From: Deltaproteobacteria bacterium
GTDB lineage: Bacteria > Myxococcota_A > Polyangia > JAAYKL01
DNA length: 60,779 nt
Assembly (NCBI GenBank): GCA_016937015.1
Contig: JAFGWT010000106.1
Location: forward strand, 1 to 60,779
Reading direction: 5' to 3'
The notes beneath the pieces were generated by a model, which searched no databases, was not told the DNA's origin, and saw nothing but the letters and a program-made list of their open reading frames with translations. The first letter of the stretch is position 1. Every line of letters starts with the position of its first letter. This document shows, one piece after another, positions 32,695 through 41,537 of the stretch. Both the position numbers and the translations under genes were made by a program.

Positions 32695-35600
32695 ATGAAA
32701 TACCTGTTTGAAGTGAGTTGGGAAGTCTGCAATATGGTGGGAGGCATCCACACTGTTCTTCGTTCCAAAGCGTCACAGGCCATCAACGACTATGGCGACA
32801 AATATTTTCTGCTTGGTCCGCTGCTCGATAAAACTATGGATTTCGAAGAAACAGACGATGACACCTTTAGTGCTATTCGTCCCGTTCTCGAAGAAAAGGG
32901 TCTAAAGTTCAGGCTGGGACGATGGAAGACAGAGGGAAATCCCCGCGTCATTCTGGTTGATTATAAGGACAGGTATGATTCCGGCAAGCTCCTCTATCAG
33001 TACTGGCAGCGGTTCGGTGTAAATTCGATGGGGAGTAGTTGGGAATATATTGAACCAGTCGTTTTTTCAACGGCATGCGGTGAGATCATAGAAACAATTC
33101 ATTCTGCCATCATAACCCCAGAAGATACTGCAACCGCACATTTTCACGAGTGGATGAGTGGCGGTGGATTGCTGCATCTGAAAAAAACAACGCCTGAAAT
33201 CGGAACCGTATTCACAACCCATGCCACCGTGCTTGGCCGTTCAATGTGTGGCGCTGGTGTTGATATTTATGCAGATAATGTACACGTTGATCCGGTGAAG
33301 GATGCGGCGGCTTACGGCGTCTCAGCCAAGGCATCTCTCGAGGCTACCTGCGCCCGCGAAGCAGATATTTTTACGACTGTCAGCAATGTTACAGCCGAAG
33401 AATCCGCAAAAATGCTCGGTATCCGCCCTCATTACCTCGTCTACAACGGTATGAACACTGATGCGCTGGACACTTTGCAGAATATTCGAAAAAAAGCACC
33501 GAAAATACGCGATAGAATTTTTTCTATGACCAAGGCATTTTTAGGTTACGAGCTGCCCGAAAACACCCGCTTCTGGGCAACCGCGGGACGATATGAATAT
33601 CGCAACAAAGGTTACGATGTACTGATTGAAAGTCTCTCCCGTCTTGACAGCGAGCTCAGGGAAACGTCAGATGCCCCTCCTGTTGTTGTCTGGCTGCTTA
33701 TTGCCAGCGGCAACGAGGGTATAAAGGAGGGGGTGAAAGCCCGCTTTGATGGCACCTGGGAAGGGCCGATTGAGGAACCGGGCATCCTCACCCATGCACT
33801 GCGAAATGAAAACTACGACAACATCGTCCAGGCGTGCCACAGACTTGGCCTCAATAACCGACCGGCCAACAAAGTAAAAATTATCTTTTCGCCCATATAT
33901 GTCAACGAGAGCGATGGCATCTTCAATACCAACTATTATGAATTGCTATCATCATTTGATCTCGGTGTGTTCCCCTCCGCTTATGAGCCTTGGGGATATA
34001 CCCCGATGGAAAGCAGTGCGGTTGGGGTTCCCACCATTACCAGCGACTTGGGAGGATTTGGTCGGTGGGTCAGGGAGCAGAATCTGGCCGTGAATAAAGG
34101 CATTGAGGTCATCGAGCGGGCGAATAGACCGTACGAAGCCATATGTGAGTCACTTTACAGAGCGCTCACTGAATATGTATTCGTTAACGATGATGAACTT
34201 GATTCCATGAGGCATCAGGCACGCAGAATCGCCGATACAGCAGGTTGGTCGGCGTTCTATCGCAACTATCAAAAGAGCTATACCGCAGCAAGCATTATCG
34301 CAGAGAAGCGGCTGAATTCTCTCGATACCAGCTCATTCTCAGATGAACTGTTTATTTCATTTAAAGGCGCTGAAGGACCTGGCCCTCACTATCGCAGATT
34401 GACCGTTGCGCCTCAGTTACCTGAGTCTTTCAGCAAGCTGGGCAAACTGGCCAATAACCTCTGGTGGGCCTGGCACCCCGAGGGTTGTGAACTGTTTGAG
34501 CATGTGGACCCCTACTTATGGAACGAAGTCGAATCAAACCCTGTGCTATTTCTCGAAAAACTGCATCCCAGTGTGCTTGAAGACAAAGAGAAAGACCCCG
34601 TTTATGTAAAAAAATATAATCGGGTTATAGATGAATTTGAGAGCTACATGGCAGCACCTGGGCGGAAATATGATTCCGGCGGAGCGCTTAGCATGGCGCA
34701 TCCCATCGCATATTTTTCGATGGAGTTTTGTATACATGAATGTCTGCCCATATATTCCGGTGGACTTGGTGTGCTGTCCGGTGATCATATGAAATCAGCG
34801 TCAGATCTAAACCTGCCGCTCATCGGGATTGGTTTTTTCTACAAGCAAGGCTATTTCCAGCAGCAAATAGACATTAACGGTATGCAGTTGGAGCACTATC
34901 CCACCATGGATCCCTCCGGTCTGCCAATCGAAGCAGTTCGCGATAGCAATAATCAGGAAATCCGAATTACAGTTCCTCTACCAGGGCGAGATGTGACCGC
35001 AAAGGTGTGGCAGGTCCATGTCGGTCGCATTAACCTGTACTTGCTGGACACAGATGTTGAGGAAAATCACCCGGATGACCGACGCATTTCATCAAAACTC
35101 TATGGCGGCGGAAAGCGGATGCGAATAGAGCAGGAAATCATTCTAGGTATGGGTGGCGTTAAGTTTATTGAAGATAAGCTTAAAATCAAACCCCAAGTGT
35201 ATCACCTGAACGAGGGACACTGCGGATTCCTTCTTTTTGAGCGCATAGAGAGACACATGAAAGAGGGGCTCAGTTTCCAGGAAGCTCGCGAAATGGTAAA
35301 AGCATCTTCTGTCTTTACGACACATACACCCGTTCCAGCCGGTAATGAAACATTCGATGTTGACCTGATGCAAAAATATTTTTCCGACATGCCTGGACGT
35401 CTTTCCATTACCTTTGACCAGTTGATGGAGATGGGATTCTCTAAACCAGGTGAAGCCAATCGAGCGTTTTCAATGACGGTTTTGGCGCTGAAACTGTCCA
35501 GTCGCGCCAACGGTGTTTCGAAGCTCCACGGAAAAGTCTGCCGTGAAATGTGGCGAGATGTGTGGAAGGAACTCGACCCGGATGAGGTTCCCATCACATC

Positions 35601-36945
35601 GATTACAAACGGTATCCACATTACATCGTGGATAGGCGAGGATGTGAAGCGGCTGCTTGACCAGTACCTGGATATCAACTGGGATGAAAATCAGGATGAC
35701 CCGATTGTATGGATGGGTATAGACAAAGTGCCTGACGAAATCCTTTGGTACGAGCATCGCTCGCAGAAAAAAAGAATGGTCGAACAGTTGAAGGAAAAGC
35801 TATATACCGACTACAGTCGCAGAGGAGAAACGCCCACATTTATCAAGGAATCCATCGAAGCGTTAAATCCTGACGCACTCACTATCGGCTTTGCTCGGCG
35901 TTTTGCCACGTATAAACGAGGAACACTTTTACTCAAGCACAGAGATGCCCTCGCCACTTTCCTCAACAACCCAGACAAGCCAGTGCAGATTCTTTTCGCA
36001 GGGAAAGCGCATCCCGCTGATACCCAGGGCAAGGAATTGATTCAAAAGATTATCGAAGAATCTCGAACACCGGAATTTAAAGGAAAAATTTTCTACCTCG
36101 AAAATTACAACATGAAACTTGGGCGTTTGCTAACCCAAGGCGTCGACGTGTGGCTCAATACACCAGTTCGGCCCCACGAAGCAAGCGGTACCAGTGGTAT
36201 GAAGGTTGTACCCAATGGAGGGTTGAACTGTTCCATTTTAGATGGATGGTGGGATGAAGGATACGACGACGATGTCGGATTCGCCATCAATTGCACTGCA
36301 ACCCCCATCGACCGGAACCACCAGGATGAAATGGACAATAACGCGCTGTTCAATATTCTCCTGAACGATATCACTCCTACGTACTATGAGCGGGATAAAC
36401 AAAACGTACCTATCGGTTGGGTGGCAAAAATGAAATCCGCCTACAGGAAGCTCGCTCCTGTATTTTCAACAATGAGAATGGTTAATGAATACCAGGAGAG
36501 ATTGTATATACCCACTGCAATGCGGGCGATGCAGCTCAGGTCAGATAATTATAGAGATATCGCCATCCTTACTGACTGGAAAAGAAGTATCAAAGCCCGC
36601 TTCTCAACGGTTCAAATCGACCATGTCAAAATCAAAGGATTGGATGGCGACATGCTCCCTCCCAACACGCCTCTCGAAATAGAGATTAATGTCATCCCTG
36701 GCAAAATGCGCGAAGAGGAACTGAAAGCTGAACTTATCATTGGACAGGATGCGGGTGAACGTTTTGCAGATGAACCCAAAACCATTCCGCTCAAGCTTGT
36801 TGAGTCTCTGGATCCAACGGTATTCAAATTCGTCCTCTCCCACCAGCTTGATTTCAGCGGTACGTTTCGTTATGCCTTGCGCGTAGTGCCGACCCATCCA
36901 TTGCTAACCTGCACTCAGGAAACTGGACTGGTGCTTTGGACATGA
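32695..36945 (+). CDS. Glycogen synthase (GT3) fused to alpha-glucan phosphorylase (GT35)
   Basis: A 1416-residue two-enzyme protein. Residues 1 to about 550 resemble eukaryotic-type GT3 glycogen synthase: EVSWEVCNMVGGIHTVLRSK at the N-terminus, FTTHATVLGR, and the catalytic AYEPWGYTPMESSAVGVPTI (two Glu seven apart). Residues about 565-1416 are an alpha-glucan phosphorylase with the short-type N-terminal domain (NNLWWAWHPE), the GGLGVLSGDHMKSASDL block, and the pyridoxal-phosphate site EASGTSGMK (Lys1170). One chain would thus add glucose from a nucleotide sugar and release it as glucose-1-phosphate. Similar fusions are known, for example in Bacteroidota. AAGGAG precedes the ATG. It closes the operon. 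Confidence 0.9.
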   Translation: MKYLFEVSWEVCNMVGGIHTVLRSKASQAINDYGDKYFLLGPLLDKTMDFEETDDDTFSAIRPVLEEKGLKFRLGRWKTEGNPRVILVDYKDRYDSGKLLYQYWQRFGVNSMGSSWEYIEPVVFSTACGEIIETIHSAIITPEDTATAHFHEWMSGGGLLHLKKTTPEIGTVFTTHATVLGRSMCGAGVDIYADNVHVDPVKDAAAYGVSAKASLEATCAREADIFTTVSNVTAEESAKMLGIRPHYLVYNGMNTDALDTLQNIRKKAPKIRDRIFSMTKAFLGYELPENTRFWATAGRYEYRNKGYDVLIESLSRLDSELRETSDAPPVVVWLLIASGNEGIKEGVKARFDGTWEGPIEEPGILTHALRNENYDNIVQACHRLGLNNRPANKVKIIFSPIYVNESDGIFNTNYYELLSSFDLGVFPSAYEPWGYTPMESSAVGVPTITSDLGGFGRWVREQNLAVNKGIEVIERANRPYEAICESLYRALTEYVFVNDDELDSMRHQARRIADTAGWSAFYRNYQKSYTAASIIAEKRLNSLDTSSFSDELFISFKGAEGPGPHYRRLTVAPQLPESFSKLGKLANNLWWAWHPEGCELFEHVDPYLWNEVESNPVLFLEKLHPSVLEDKEKDPVYVKKYNRVIDEFESYMAAPGRKYDSGGALSMAHPIAYFSMEFCIHECLPIYSGGLGVLSGDHMKSASDLNLPLIGIGFFYKQGYFQQQIDINGMQLEHYPTMDPSGLPIEAVRDSNNQEIRITVPLPGRDVTAKVWQVHVGRINLYLLDTDVEENHPDDRRISSKLYGGGKRMRIEQEIILGMGGVKFIEDKLKIKPQVYHLNEGHCGFLLFERIERHMKEGLSFQEAREMVKASSVFTTHTPVPAGNETFDVDLMQKYFSDMPGRLSITFDQLMEMGFSKPGEANRAFSMTVLALKLSSRANGVSKLHGKVCREMWRDVWKELDPDEVPITSITNGIHITSWIGEDVKRLLDQYLDINWDENQDDPIVWMGIDKVPDEILWYEHRSQKKRMVEQLKEKLYTDYSRRGETPTFIKESIEALNPDALTIGFARRFATYKRGTLLLKHRDALATFLNNPDKPVQILFAGKAHPADTQGKELIQKIIEESRTPEFKGKIFYLENYNMKLGRLLTQGVDVWLNTPVRPHEASGTSGMKVVPNGGLNCSILDGWWDEGYDDDVGFAINCTATPIDRNHQDEMDNNALFNILLNDITPTYYERDKQNVPIGWVAKMKSAYRKLAPVFSTMRMVNEYQERLYIPTAMRAMQLRSDNYRDIAILTDWKRSIKARFSTVQIDHVKIKGLDGDMLPPNTPLEIEINVIPGKMREEELKAELIIGQDAGERFADEPKTIPLKLVESLDPTVFKFVLSHQLDFSGTFRYALRVVPTHPLLTCTQETGLVLWT

Positions 36946-37078: not shown

Positions 37079-38170
37079 ATGACTGCAGCGCGATGTATTT
37101 TGTTGGTTGAAGACGATGAAACGATTCGCTCTTCTGCAGCGATGTATCTTGAAGACAACGAGTTTGAGGTACATAGCGCAGAGAACGGCCAACAGGCCAT
37201 AGACATGCTTGCAGAGATATTTCCGGATGTCCTCGTCACTGATATACGAATGCCAGTAATGGACGGATTTGAAGTCATTGAAAAACTTGGTGTGAGCCAT
37301 CCTGAACTTCCAATTATTGTAATGAGTGGCACTGGCGATCTCGCTGATGTTGTAAAAGCACTTCGATTCGGCGTATGGGATTTCATTCTCAAGCCAATCG
37401 CTGATATGAATATACTCCTTCACTCAATCAACAAAAGTATCGAAAAGGCAGCCCTTATCGAAGAAAACAAAAAGCATCGACGCAACCTCGAAATCGCCAA
37501 CGCGGAGCTGGAATCATTTAACTATTCAATCTCCCATGATTTGCGAAGTCCGTTGCATGCCATTGATGCATTCAGTGAAATGCTTGAAGAAGACTGCAGC
37601 GAAATCCTGCCATCCGAGAACCTCGATCATCTAAAGCGCATCCGCGCAGCGACCAGCAGAATGAATAGAATGATAGAAGACCTGCTCATGCTATCCAGGC
37701 TATCCAGACAGCCCCTGGAAAAGGTGACGGTAAACCTGTCATCAATAGCAGGGAGAATCTCCGATTCCCTGAGGATGGAATACCCCGCAAACAATACTTC
37801 AATTAATATACAGGATGACCTGTCGGTCTATGCGGATGCAGGATTAATGGAAAATGTCATGGAAAATCTGCTGGGTAATGCCTGGAAATACTCCAGCAAA
37901 AGCGAGAACGCCACAGTCGATGTCGGTCGCTGCCAAACAAAAAAAGGCGATGCAGTCTTCATCAGGGACAATGGTGCCGGCTTCAATATGAAGAATTACG
38001 ATAGACTGTTTGGCGTCTTCCAGCGTCTGCATCTCGAAAAGGAATTTAAAGGAACCGGCGTCGGACTTGCCACGGTCAAACGAATTATTCAGCGACACGG
38101 TGGAAACATCTGGGCGGATTCTGAAGTTGGCAAAGGAGCCACGTTCTACTTCACCTTGCCCGAAGAATAA
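37079..38170 (+). CDS. Receiver-histidine kinase hybrid
   Basis: A 363-residue cytoplasmic signalling protein. Residues 1-120 are a receiver domain (LLVEDDET acidic pocket, phosphorylated Asp in VLVTDIRMP, conserved Thr/Ser and the Lys in ILKPI). Then comes a helical linker, a HisKA domain with the phospho-His in YSISHDLRSPLHAI (near residue 156), and an HATPase domain with ENLLGNAWKYS, DNGAGF and GTGVGLATVKRI. There is no membrane segment, so the input probably comes by phosphotransfer to the receiver. GAGAGGA precedes the ATG. The last 20 bases overlap the convergent FliF/SctJ-like gene. Confidence 0.9.
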   Translation: MTAARCILLVEDDETIRSSAAMYLEDNEFEVHSAENGQQAIDMLAEIFPDVLVTDIRMPVMDGFEVIEKLGVSHPELPIIVMSGTGDLADVVKALRFGVWDFILKPIADMNILLHSINKSIEKAALIEENKKHRRNLEIANAELESFNYSISHDLRSPLHAIDAFSEMLEEDCSEILPSENLDHLKRIRAATSRMNRMIEDLLMLSRLSRQPLEKVTVNLSSIAGRISDSLRMEYPANNTSINIQDDLSVYADAGLMENVMENLLGNAWKYSSKSENATVDVGRCQTKKGDAVFIRDNGAGFNMKNYDRLFGVFQRLHLEKEFKGTGVGLATVKRIIQRHGGNIWADSEVGKGATFYFTLPEE

Positions 38171-38720
38171 TGCGTCTTACACCAGTGACGATTAACGCTA
38201 TCGCGCTGAGCATCACCAGCAAAATCAGAGCGACGATATACGGTTTCCACTTTGACAAAAATGTTTCCCCTGTTTTCGAAGCACATTTTGAGAGCATTGA
38301 TGTGGGCGATTTTGTTTTGTGCACAAAAACACCCACATTTGCCTTCTCGAGTCGAGATACCGCGCCAGCGATAATTGATCTCACTTCATCCTTCGATACT
38401 GAATCTGGATAATCTGAGAGGATAACCACCGATGCACTCGATGGACTGTATTGAGAGGCCAATCGCACTGTAGTCGGCAAAGATATGTGAACCTTTGCCG
38501 ATACGACATATGGCAACATCTCAATTGTATCCGTGAGGCTGGCAGCAAGTTCCCGCTCTCGTAGCGCCTGCTCTTCAGTCCAGGAAGGGAAAAACCGCCC
38601 AAAACTCCCCAAAGATTTTGTTTGAGCCTGAGTTTCCCCCAATGCAATACTGGAGAAAACGAAAATTCCAAAAGCGACTGAAGTAATTACAACAAAACAC
38701 CGTGGCATCATGCGCGACAA
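38151..38720 (-). CDS. Stand-alone FliF/SctJ-like ring-domain membrane protein
   Basis: A 189-residue protein with a signal-like N-terminal segment (1-28), a domain (about 50-140) resembling the ring-building motif of FliF/SctJ (YscJ) proteins, and a C-terminal membrane helix (about 160-182) ending in Arg residues. The marks are RERELAASLTDTIEMLPYV, SAKVHISLP, SSASVVILSDYP and VRSIIAGAVSRL. In flagella and type III secretion this domain builds the inner-membrane ring, but no other such genes are present here. It begins 12 bases after the pseudokinase gene and should be co-transcribed with it. Confidence 0.6.
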   Translation of the reverse strand: MSRMMPRCFVVITSVAFGIFVFSSIALGETQAQTKSLGSFGRFFPSWTEEQALRERELAASLTDTIEMLPYVVSAKVHISLPTTVRLASQYSPSSASVVILSDYPDSVSKDEVRSIIAGAVSRLEKANVGVFVHKTKSPTSMLSKCASKTGETFLSKWKPYIVALILLVMLSAIALIVTGVRRIILRAR

Positions 38721-38732
38721 GTCTGTGCCAAA

Positions 38733-40586
38733 TCAGTACAATTCAAAGTACCAGGAAGTTGCAGTTCTAGCCTGATTGGAAGTTGGGAATTTGATGGAAC
38801 GAACTTTTTGAGTAATGCAACTCTTCATTTTCCCGCTCCCCTGCGTCACAGAAACCCCCATGACTCGTCCGTCGCCAGCAACAGCAATATTCATATCGAC
38901 GCGTTTCACATGTTCTCCAGCAATACAGGGGATAAATTTACGAACATTGCGGCTCATGATTGCGTTGATATCCTCAGCTGTCAATTTTTTACCGCCGGAA
39001 CCGCTTAAATCGCCAAGTGAAACCCCCATATTCATGGCTTCCTCGTAGCTCATACCGTTCACAAACTCCCGCCCATCACCACCTCCTGCGCCGCCACCGC
39101 CGCCGCTGCGACGTTTGCCTTTGCCACGACGTTTACCACTGCCTTTAGATCCAGGGTTCATTGTTGAGCCCATTTTGAGTTGTATTTCGCCACTCTCCAG
39201 TGCATCTACCATCTCATCAGGCCCTAATTGCTTTTCCTTGCGCAAAGTTCGCGTCAGAAAGTATCCACCGACCACCAGACCGATCACGCCGAGAACAGAT
39301 GCAGCCATAACCAGTTTAAACAGCATCCCCCTACTCTCTGCCTTCTCTGTTTTCGCGAGTGCTTCCTGCTCGTCCTGCGCTTGCTTTTTTAGACGATATC
39401 GTTCCAGATAAACATCAAACTCCCCCCACGATCGCACGGGCTTTCGCTCACCTGTGTCCATATTGGTCAGACCGTGATTACCCAGCACCTCACCTAGCAA
39501 AATCATCTGAACAAGTTCACGATCATTAAACGGTCCGTGATCAAATTTGTCTTTCTGGACCATCCAACGCGCGGCATCATTAGAGCTCGCATTAGCCAAT
39601 ATCGCGCCCATATCGATGGTGGAAGCGCGATCGTCCTTCTTGTTTGCCATGGGAAGCGGGGGTAACCCCGGCGCATTCAGCATTCCCGAACCGCCTGTCA
39701 CTGAACTTTCATCCTCACCCAAATCCAACTCCACATCGATTGTTATTCCCAGATCATCATCCACTGCGCCCGGAGGTACAATCGACGTCTTTTCAGTTGA
39801 TGCCAGCTGTTTAATTGCCTGTTTGACTTCGGAGGCATTTTTATATCGCTGTTTTGGATCAGCAGACATACACCGGGCAACAATATTGTCCACCTCAGCT
39901 GAAAAACCGAGCTTACTGGGTGCTATCAGCGGCCGCTGTGGAGTTCGCCCTGTAATCAGGCTGTAGAATAACGCACCTAAAGAGAAAATGTCAGATCGGT
40001 AAGACGCTGAGCGCGCTTCTTTTAATGCTTCAGGGGACCAGTATGCGGCTTCTACCTTTTGTCGCCCTGGATAATCCTTCAAATTGATGCGTAAAGTGGA
40101 CAACGCCCAGTCGTGCACTTTCACGCGCCCTGCGTTGTTCACCATAATGGCACGGGGATTCAGTGCGCCGTGATAACATCCATTCTCATGCGCATAGGAA
40201 AGGGCGTTACAAACATGGCCTATGATATTGTAAGCCCCTTTAAACGAAAATCGCTTTTCTGACTCAGTCCGCTTTTTCAACAGTGTCTGCAGATTTTGTC
40301 CATCAACCCATTCGGTTGATATAAATACGTAATCATCCTTAATCCCCATTCCGAATGTTGCGCGAATATTTCGGTGAATTAGCGCGGACGACTGCTGCAT
40401 TCGAGCTTTGATATGCTCCAGCCCAGACTCGCCAAGAAGATGAACGGAAATAACGCGCACAGCCACCTGCTTTTTGGTTTTGCTGTCCAACGCCTTATAA
40501 ACCTGGCCCATATCCCCTTGATTTTCCAGACTCTCTATCACAAATCTTTCGCCCAGCACGGTGCCCTTTGAAATATTCTGTTGCAT
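38733..40586 (-). CDS. Pseudokinase with GYF and AgmX/PglI-type C-terminal domain
   Basis: A 617-residue membrane protein. Residues 8-265 have the Ser/Thr kinase fold, but the ATP-binding Lys is Arg44 (VAVRVI), the HRD motif is HGA (Ala141 for Asp) and the catalytic-loop Asn is Ala146, so it should be inactive. The DFG position reads DWA. An acidic linker leads to a GYF-2-like domain (341-398, WMVQKDKFDHGPF). A membrane helix (424-446) and a basic, Gly-rich stretch follow. The C-terminus (about 535-617, with NVRKFIPC and IAVAGDGRVMGVSV) resembles the AgmX/PglI domain of Myxococcota motility proteins. It heads an operon with the FliF/SctJ-like gene. Confidence 0.75.
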   Translation of the reverse strand: MQQNISKGTVLGERFVIESLENQGDMGQVYKALDSKTKKQVAVRVISVHLLGESGLEHIKARMQQSSALIHRNIRATFGMGIKDDYVFISTEWVDGQNLQTLLKKRTESEKRFSFKGAYNIIGHVCNALSYAHENGCYHGALNPRAIMVNNAGRVKVHDWALSTLRINLKDYPGRQKVEAAYWSPEALKEARSASYRSDIFSLGALFYSLITGRTPQRPLIAPSKLGFSAEVDNIVARCMSADPKQRYKNASEVKQAIKQLASTEKTSIVPPGAVDDDLGITIDVELDLGEDESSVTGGSGMLNAPGLPPLPMANKKDDRASTIDMGAILANASSNDAARWMVQKDKFDHGPFNDRELVQMILLGEVLGNHGLTNMDTGERKPVRSWGEFDVYLERYRLKKQAQDEQEALAKTEKAESRGMLFKLVMAASVLGVIGLVVGGYFLTRTLRKEKQLGPDEMVDALESGEIQLKMGSTMNPGSKGSGKRRGKGKRRSGGGGGAGGGDGREFVNGMSYEEAMNMGVSLGDLSGSGGKKLTAEDINAIMSRNVRKFIPCIAGEHVKRVDMNIAVAGDGRVMGVSVTQGSGKMKSCITQKVRSIKFPTSNQARTATSWYFELY

Positions 40587-40886: not shown

Positions 40887-41537
40887 ATGAAATACGTCCA
40901 ATCAAAAAAAATATTTTCAATATTATTCATTCTTACTGCCTTTTCCCTGGTAAGCCTGAATGCGGCAGCTGTTGATTTTACGACAGCGGAAAAAGAAAAG
41001 CTCAAGGCAGGAAAAACCATTAAGAAACGTCTGGCTACTTCAGGCCAAAAAGGATTTTTTGGTGGTTCCGGATACACGTTGATTGATGCACCGGCTGACG
41101 TGGTATGGCAGGCAATCAAAGATTGGGGCGCTTACGACAAAATGTTCTCTGCCACATCCAGTGTGAAGGAAGTTGCACAAAAGGGAAACACATCACTTAT
41201 ACATTATGAAATGGGCTACAAAATGATTAGCCTCGAGTACTACATGGAAGCTAAATTCGACAAAGCCAATTACACAATGACTTTCACTCTGGTTGAGAGT
41301 AAACCTCACGACATCGATATGGCCAAAGGGTACTGGAAACTTTTCCCGCAGCCAGGAAATCGCACCTTGGTTGCCTATGTTGTTTCCGCAAAAGTGCCCA
41401 TGGGCGTGGTCAACCTTCTTAACGACGATATGAACCAAATGGTGGAACGAAATCTGATTGGTGCACCTAATGATGTAAAAAAATGGCTGGCGTCTGCTGC
41501 TGGCAGAAAATACTTCACCAGGACGGCAAGAAAGTAG
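40887..41537 (+). CDS. Secreted SRPBCC/START-like protein
   Basis: A 216-residue exported protein with a signal peptide (cleavage near the LNAAA site, residue 28). The mature part reads as an SRPBCC/polyketide-cyclase-like fold, which forms a pocket for hydrophobic ligands: TLIDAPADVVWQAIKDWGAYDKMF near residue 65, a GYWKLFPQPGNRTLVAYVVSA strand block, and a long C-terminal helix (NLLNDDMNQMVERNL). The ligand is unknown. AGGAGC precedes the ATG. A strong terminator follows. Confidence 0.75.
   Translation: MKYVQSKKIFSILFILTAFSLVSLNAAAVDFTTAEKEKLKAGKTIKKRLATSGQKGFFGGSGYTLIDAPADVVWQAIKDWGAYDKMFSATSSVKEVAQKGNTSLIHYEMGYKMISLEYYMEAKFDKANYTMTFTLVESKPHDIDMAKGYWKLFPQPGNRTLVAYVVSAKVPMGVVNLLNDDMNQMVERNLIGAPNDVKKWLASAAGRKYFTRTARK

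Follow-up and report, generated by a model that had tools for sequence, protein, structure and literature searches.

A conserved myxobacterial pseudokinase-GYF protein family, often encoded beside a type III secretion ring gene, probably acts as a scaffold

We analysed a 60,779-nucleotide stretch of DNA, here called the window, from a myxobacterial genome (G000 in our set). On its (-) strand, at 38733..40586, lies an open reading frame with an ATG start for a protein of 617 residues, whose full-length relatives were found down to about 24-28% identity. The protein comprises a pseudokinase domain (residues 8-268; 39783..40565), a GYF-like domain (residues 336-400; 39387..39581), a membrane helix (residues 425-444; 39255..39314) and a TonB/TolA-like C-terminal tail (38736..39002), all on the (-) strand. 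The kinase domain matches Pfam PF00069 with an E-value of 6.8e-29 (101.5 bits against a cut-off of 31.7), and its best Foldseek match is PknB (6i2p), with a TM-score of 0.76 on the target. In the alignment with PknB, R44 occupies the position of the VAIK lysine, HGA (residues 139-141) that of the HRD motif and A146 that of the catalytic asparagine, and the DFG aspartate, D159, is retained. The translation and this alignment bear out the substitutions listed in a preliminary description of the locus, and the Pfam and structural matches bear out its statement that the kinase fold is otherwise well formed. The AlphaFold model of the full protein has a mean pLDDT of 80.7 and a pTM of 0.52, with long linkers of low confidence.

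The remaining domains were assigned from hydropathy, relatives and fold. A single strongly hydrophobic segment, at about residues 421-444, agrees with the membrane helix described previously and ends a continuous modelled helix spanning residues 391-445. For the GYF-like domain, the window protein alone gave no Pfam match at E<=1; PF14237 (GYF_2) matches 11 of the 36 members of the family alignment, with a best E-value of 0.0011. The top Foldseek row for a model of the GYF domain and tail was the GYF domain of M. xanthus GltJ (7z3c), a weak match at an E-value of 0.042, and none of the 360 matches reached 0.001. VIA-align superposed the same model on 7z3c over 64 residues (Z 6.4, rmsd 2.5) and placed GYF domains among its first rows, at Z 6.4-7.3, with no row at Z >= 8. 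Since the assignment in the window protein is weak by itself, it rests on the PF14237 matches of the relatives together with the fold, and by that route the GYF domain of the preliminary description is upheld. The tail, presumably periplasmic, contains two cysteines, C554 and C590, that are invariant in the family alignments. Its fold matches in both Foldseek and VIA-align are C-terminal domains of TonB and TolA; against the NCBIfam AgmX/PglI C-terminal domain (myxo_SS_tail) it scored 22.4 bits, under the cut-off of 40. The GltJ equivalog model, whose cut-off is 450 bits, gave the window protein 11.7. The predicted topology is a cytosolic half made of the pseudokinase and GYF domains, one crossing of the inner membrane and a periplasmic tail.

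Directly downstream, beginning 12 bp past the pseudokinase stop codon and on the same strand, is a gene for a 189-residue protein resembling the inner-ring component SctJ/YscJ of type III secretion systems (38151..38720, (-) strand). It starts with TTG, and two ATG codons follow a few codons further on. The protein matches PF01514 (YscJ/FliF) with an E-value of 5.7e-12 and 46.3 bits, above the cut-off of 24.4; on the SctJ model TIGR02544 it reaches 36.6 bits, below the cut-off of 161.95, and on the FliF model 22.8 bits, also below cut-off. Because the strict SctJ model is not reached, we call the gene SctJ-like. The matched, ring-building part covers positions 77-170 of the 179-position profile (38325..38597, (-) strand), and hydropathy places a hydrophobic segment near the C-terminus (38175..38243, (-) strand). 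When aligned with fuller relatives, the window copy is reduced: it keeps the second of the ring-building parts along with the C-terminal helix, and it lacks the first ring domain and the lipobox cysteine, both of which many relatives have. Related partners of pseudokinase genes keep a lipobox-like cysteine, both ring domains and the C-terminal helix. The full-length partners at loci L160 and L161 scored 120 and 157.5 bits on the SctJ model versus 21.2 and 45.7 on FliF, the L161 protein stopping just short of the TIGR02544 cut-off.

The pair is flanked by genes on the opposite strand. A convergent gene for a hybrid kinase with response regulator, HisKA and HATPase domains (37079..38170, (+) strand) shares 20 bp with the 3' end of the SctJ-like gene, and histidine kinases related to it occur near the pair in several relatives. 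Upstream, a divergent SRPBCC-like gene lies at 40887..41537 on the (+) strand; a relative of it is found upstream of the pseudokinase gene in eight loci of the family. A 1416-residue open reading frame further along (32695-36945, (+) strand) resembles, by eye, a glycogen synthase-phosphorylase fusion. None of the eight proteins scanned in the regions flanking the pseudokinase gene within the window is an active Ser/Thr kinase.

Loss of catalytic residues is a trait of the whole pseudokinase family. A family profile drew 79 loci from named contigs, whose titles are Myxococcota, Myxococcales or deltaproteobacterial apart from a few vague ones and a single Micrococcales label; pooling these with loci from other genomes gave 107 distinct GYF loci, 103 of which include the kinase segment. 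The HRD aspartate is kept in none of the 102 kinase-GYF loci alignable at that column, the VAIK lysine in 5 of 86 alignable there, and the catalytic-loop asparagine in 5/102; lysine and HRD aspartate never occur together (0/103). The HRD histidine persists in 87/103, followed by glycine in 85, and the DFG aspartate in 67 of 87 alignable rows. As a control, 25 other kinase matches from the same loci were taken, two of which were set aside as family members cut by a contig end, and all remaining 23 have the HRD aspartate. In comparison with its two nearest relatives, the kinase part of the window gene gave a pN of about 0.12 and a pS of 0.73-0.79. With dS at or close to saturation, only the direction, purifying selection, is safe. 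These residue patterns predict that the domain is inactive as an enzyme. They also bear on whether the window protein is a single decayed kinase copy without function, as its own missing catalytic residues might suggest and as relatives with an intact HRD and lysine would have indicated. No such relative was seen, and the family-wide loss, the open frames and the purifying selection contradict that reading, to which we assign a negligible probability. With conservation across a large myxobacterial group and the frequent position beside a type III secretion ring gene, the protein is probably a scaffold and not a decayed enzyme.

How often the two genes occur together was examined at several levels. 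In the family of the window genome, 12 of 14 genomes encode the pseudokinase-GYF protein, and in 11 of these 12 the SctJ-like gene lies directly downstream; in the twelfth, G008, the contig stops about 360 bp past the pseudokinase gene. Across a set of 59 genomes, a GYF-tail gene sits directly upstream of 18 of 41 short SctJ-like loci, a count that leaves out a 123-bit fragment in G011, probably a piece of FliF; in a few of the 18 the kinase part is absent or lies beyond the contig end. The other 23 loci have different neighbours. In other families of the class, the SctJ-like genes at L080-L082, L087-L091, L093, L094 and L103 have no GYF-tail gene upstream and varied surroundings. Genes for a rhomboid protein and a V-type ATPase next to SctJ were dropped as candidates, having been seen in one family and not elsewhere. 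Class-wide, the SctJ profile matches 239 of 317 genomes, a figure that may include FliF matches. Of 40 stretches taken around matches to this profile, mostly the best-scoring ones and hence biased towards pairs, 34 carry a kinase-GYF gene upstream, 1 a GYF-tail gene only and 5 neither; at L231 and L232 the distance between the pseudokinase and SctJ genes is larger. Two genomes that are complete or close to it, G314 and G315, carry the pair, and within the class it occurs in about a dozen families.

A tree of 81 rows, built by a quick method with SH-aLRT support only and with several long branches flagged, divides the family in two. The branch of the window protein holds 49 rows, of which 27 are SctJ-adjacent, 13 are not and 9 were left unassigned; among the 32 rows of the second branch, 24 are not adjacent, 8 were left unassigned and none was seen adjacent. 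SctJ adjacency requires 3 changes on this tree, versus a mean of about 21 after shuffling, and 0 of 500 shuffles was as low. One reading is a single gain followed by two losses, the counts themselves giving no direction. Pseudokinase genes of the second branch stand beside HEAT-repeat and 7TM-HD-like genes, named by eye, and seven of these loci (L171, L175, L189, L190, L192, L194 and L197) have a same-strand upstream kinase with lysine and HRD intact, which suggests kinase-pseudokinase pairs.

The components of the arrangement are separable. In L083 (genome G049) and L215 (G160), a GYF-tail gene without a kinase domain is paired with SctJ, and the pseudokinase is therefore dispensable for pairing. 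Locus L083 shares its flanks with L044 of G033, namely Lon, GpsA, sensor kinases, the scaffold slot, c47 and PyrF onward, with names given partly by eye. The slot holds the GYF-tail gene and SctJ in G049; in G033 it holds the full scaffold and no SctJ, in place of which are two opposite-strand genes, one with a T2SSE ATPase domain.

Type III export genes occur in the same genomes, dispersed. Most of the 59 genomes carry divergent extra copies of SctV and SctR, and in part of SctU, beside the flagellar ones; SctS, SctT, SctQ and the ATPase C-terminal domain were searched in 16 chosen genomes. Four flagellum-less relatives (G003, G005, G012 and G013) lack a full FliF, and each has a single set of the genes R, S, T, U, V, N and Q. 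Three of them, G003, G005 and G012, have an SctJ-like gene, each time beside the scaffold gene; in G013 both genes are missing. The G012 export genes lie on different contigs, save S and T, and its U gene is a 233-residue frame that stops ahead of the usual cytoplasmic domain. Similar SctU/FlhB-like frames of about 226-248 residues, without the C-terminal part of the profile, were seen in G003, G004, G005, G007, G010, G012 and G013; the autocleavage site of an ordinary SctU sits in that C-terminal part. In the window genome, V, R, N and Q each occur in a second copy, on different contigs, alongside the SctJ-like gene, and profile searches found no second S, T or U in it. For the additional R, N and Q proteins, NCBIfam models of type III secretion outscore the flagellar ones, mostly under the equivalog cut-offs; for V and U the two scores tie. 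A secretion cluster around the dispersed genes was considered and rejected for the loci examined, since the neighbours of the second SctV, SctR, SctN and SctQ, where searched, gave no other T3SS part. The dispersed genes may form one machine. Eight T3SS families were searched without a match in three genomes that keep the scaffold, G008, G033 and G041; G033 and G041 have a completeness rating of 100%.

In the model that we favour, at about even odds, the protein is a non-catalytic scaffold, co-encoded with the SctJ ring part of a needleless-type T3SS that it would recruit or gate. The pseudokinase and GYF domains of the cytosolic half would dock partner proteins, the single helix would span the inner membrane and the TonB/TolA-like tail would extend into the periplasm. 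In the branch of the window protein, the scaffold would probably be joined physically to the co-encoded SctJ-like protein. The latter would be the small ring subunit, in the inner membrane, of a non-flagellar type III apparatus that has dispersed genes and is related to the needleless T3SS of myxobacteria. At the SctJ ring, the scaffold could recruit or license SctQ/SctN or a signalling kinase. It could also tie the ring to the envelope, and both tasks would parallel those proposed for GltJ in the gliding machine. The recruiting role and the binding to SctJ are our proposals; the residue loss, the architecture, the operon-like pair with its conservation and the presence, in these genomes, of scattered export genes are observed. 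We speculate further, and consider it rather unlikely, that a dispersed, stripped-down non-flagellar T3SS of this Polyangia-like class was rebuilt around the pseudokinase-GYF-TolA-like protein, which would replace SctD, secretin and needle as the link between the envelope and the SctJ ring with its sorting platform; the dead kinase would be its on-off switch.

Several other readings share part of this evidence. The protein could serve the envelope more generally as a scaffold, its principal task being something other than type III secretion, and SctJ would then be one of several clients or an accident of operon history. Its retention in the three genomes without T3SS genes favours this, as do the matching flanks of G033 and G049, where SctJ occupies only the G049 slot, and the HEAT-repeat and 7TM-HD-like neighbours of the second branch. 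The coherence of SctJ adjacency on the tree within the window's branch, far below the shuffled expectation, and the recurrence of the pair across families argue against it, and we hold it to be possible, if somewhat unlikely. The three genomes do contradict an exclusive service of the secretion machine, and together with the kinase-less pairs and the G033/G049 slots they imply that SctJ is not the sole possible partner and that the kinase fold is not indispensable. The earlier suggestion is partly supported: a scaffold without catalysis that is tied to an envelope machine agrees with these findings, and its sensing and recruiting roles are proposals.

The intact kinases upstream in the second branch, with the widely retained DFG aspartate, would also suit a pseudokinase that works with an active Ser/Thr kinase, either as its allosteric partner or as the subunit presenting its substrates, and passes signals to the membrane machine. 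We judge this improbable, as the flanks scanned in the window offer a hybrid histidine kinase instead of an active Ser/Thr kinase. Least probable among the functional readings is a component of the gliding motility machinery (Glt/Agl), of which we think the chance very slim: the GltJ GYF domain is the closest in the Foldseek list and the tail resembles the AgmX/PglI domain below cut-off, but the GltJ model is missed by a wide margin and the co-directional neighbour in the window is SctJ-like, not a Glt gene. With no positive evidence beyond the GltJ-like architecture of GYF domain and tail, we rejected it as a candidate. Of the motility or secretion role raised at the outset, secretion thus gains from the adjacent, conserved SctJ-like gene, and motility keeps only that architecture.

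The family matters for two reasons. These bacterial Ser/Thr pseudokinases occur throughout a class and have a consistent partner in the genome, so that their function can be asked directly. They also offer a way to study how a needleless type III apparatus could be anchored and controlled when it has no obvious outer part. Surveys based on gene clusters did not report such a system in this group, perhaps because its genes are scattered.

Each part of the proposed arrangement has a known counterpart. Like GltJ/AgmX of M. xanthus gliding, the window protein has a cytosolic part, a GYF domain, a membrane helix and a TonB/TolA-like C-terminal part; unlike it, it begins with a pseudokinase, is paired with an SctJ-like gene and falls short of the GltJ model. 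The N-terminus of GltJ is a zinc finger. With PknB-type kinases it shares the kinase fold and its best sequence and structure matches, but it lacks their lysine, aspartate and asparagine, and the GYF domain, membrane helix and tail replace the extracellular sensor repeats. The downstream protein resembles the SctJ/YscJ/EscJ lipoproteins in its PF01514 match and through its fuller relatives, and differs in having neither first ring domain nor lipobox cysteine and in missing the TIGR02544 cut-off.

For the export apparatus, the nearest counterparts are the needleless T3SS* (mxan_2434-2464) and the Myxo NF-T3SS, which likewise combine a non-flagellar Myxococcota ring, export gate and ATPase (PMC12075869, PMC3459982). 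The reports describe the M. xanthus T3SS* as recruited to prey contact sites and required for prey lysis (PMC12075869), and the secretin-less Myxo systems as conserved loci in Cystobacterineae (Abby and Rocha 2012; PMC3459982). Both are gene clusters of Cystobacterineae as there presented, whereas here the genes lie on separate contigs in another class and SctJ is tied to the scaffold. Copies of sctV and sctR have been reported in Polyangia (PMC11509652), and the accessible part of that article makes no mention of a pseudokinase-SctJ pair; nor did we find a report of one in the literature covered, which mostly excludes subscription papers. Taken together, the window protein is a probable GltJ-like scaffold headed by a pseudokinase, and in its own branch it is linked to an SctJ-like ring gene.
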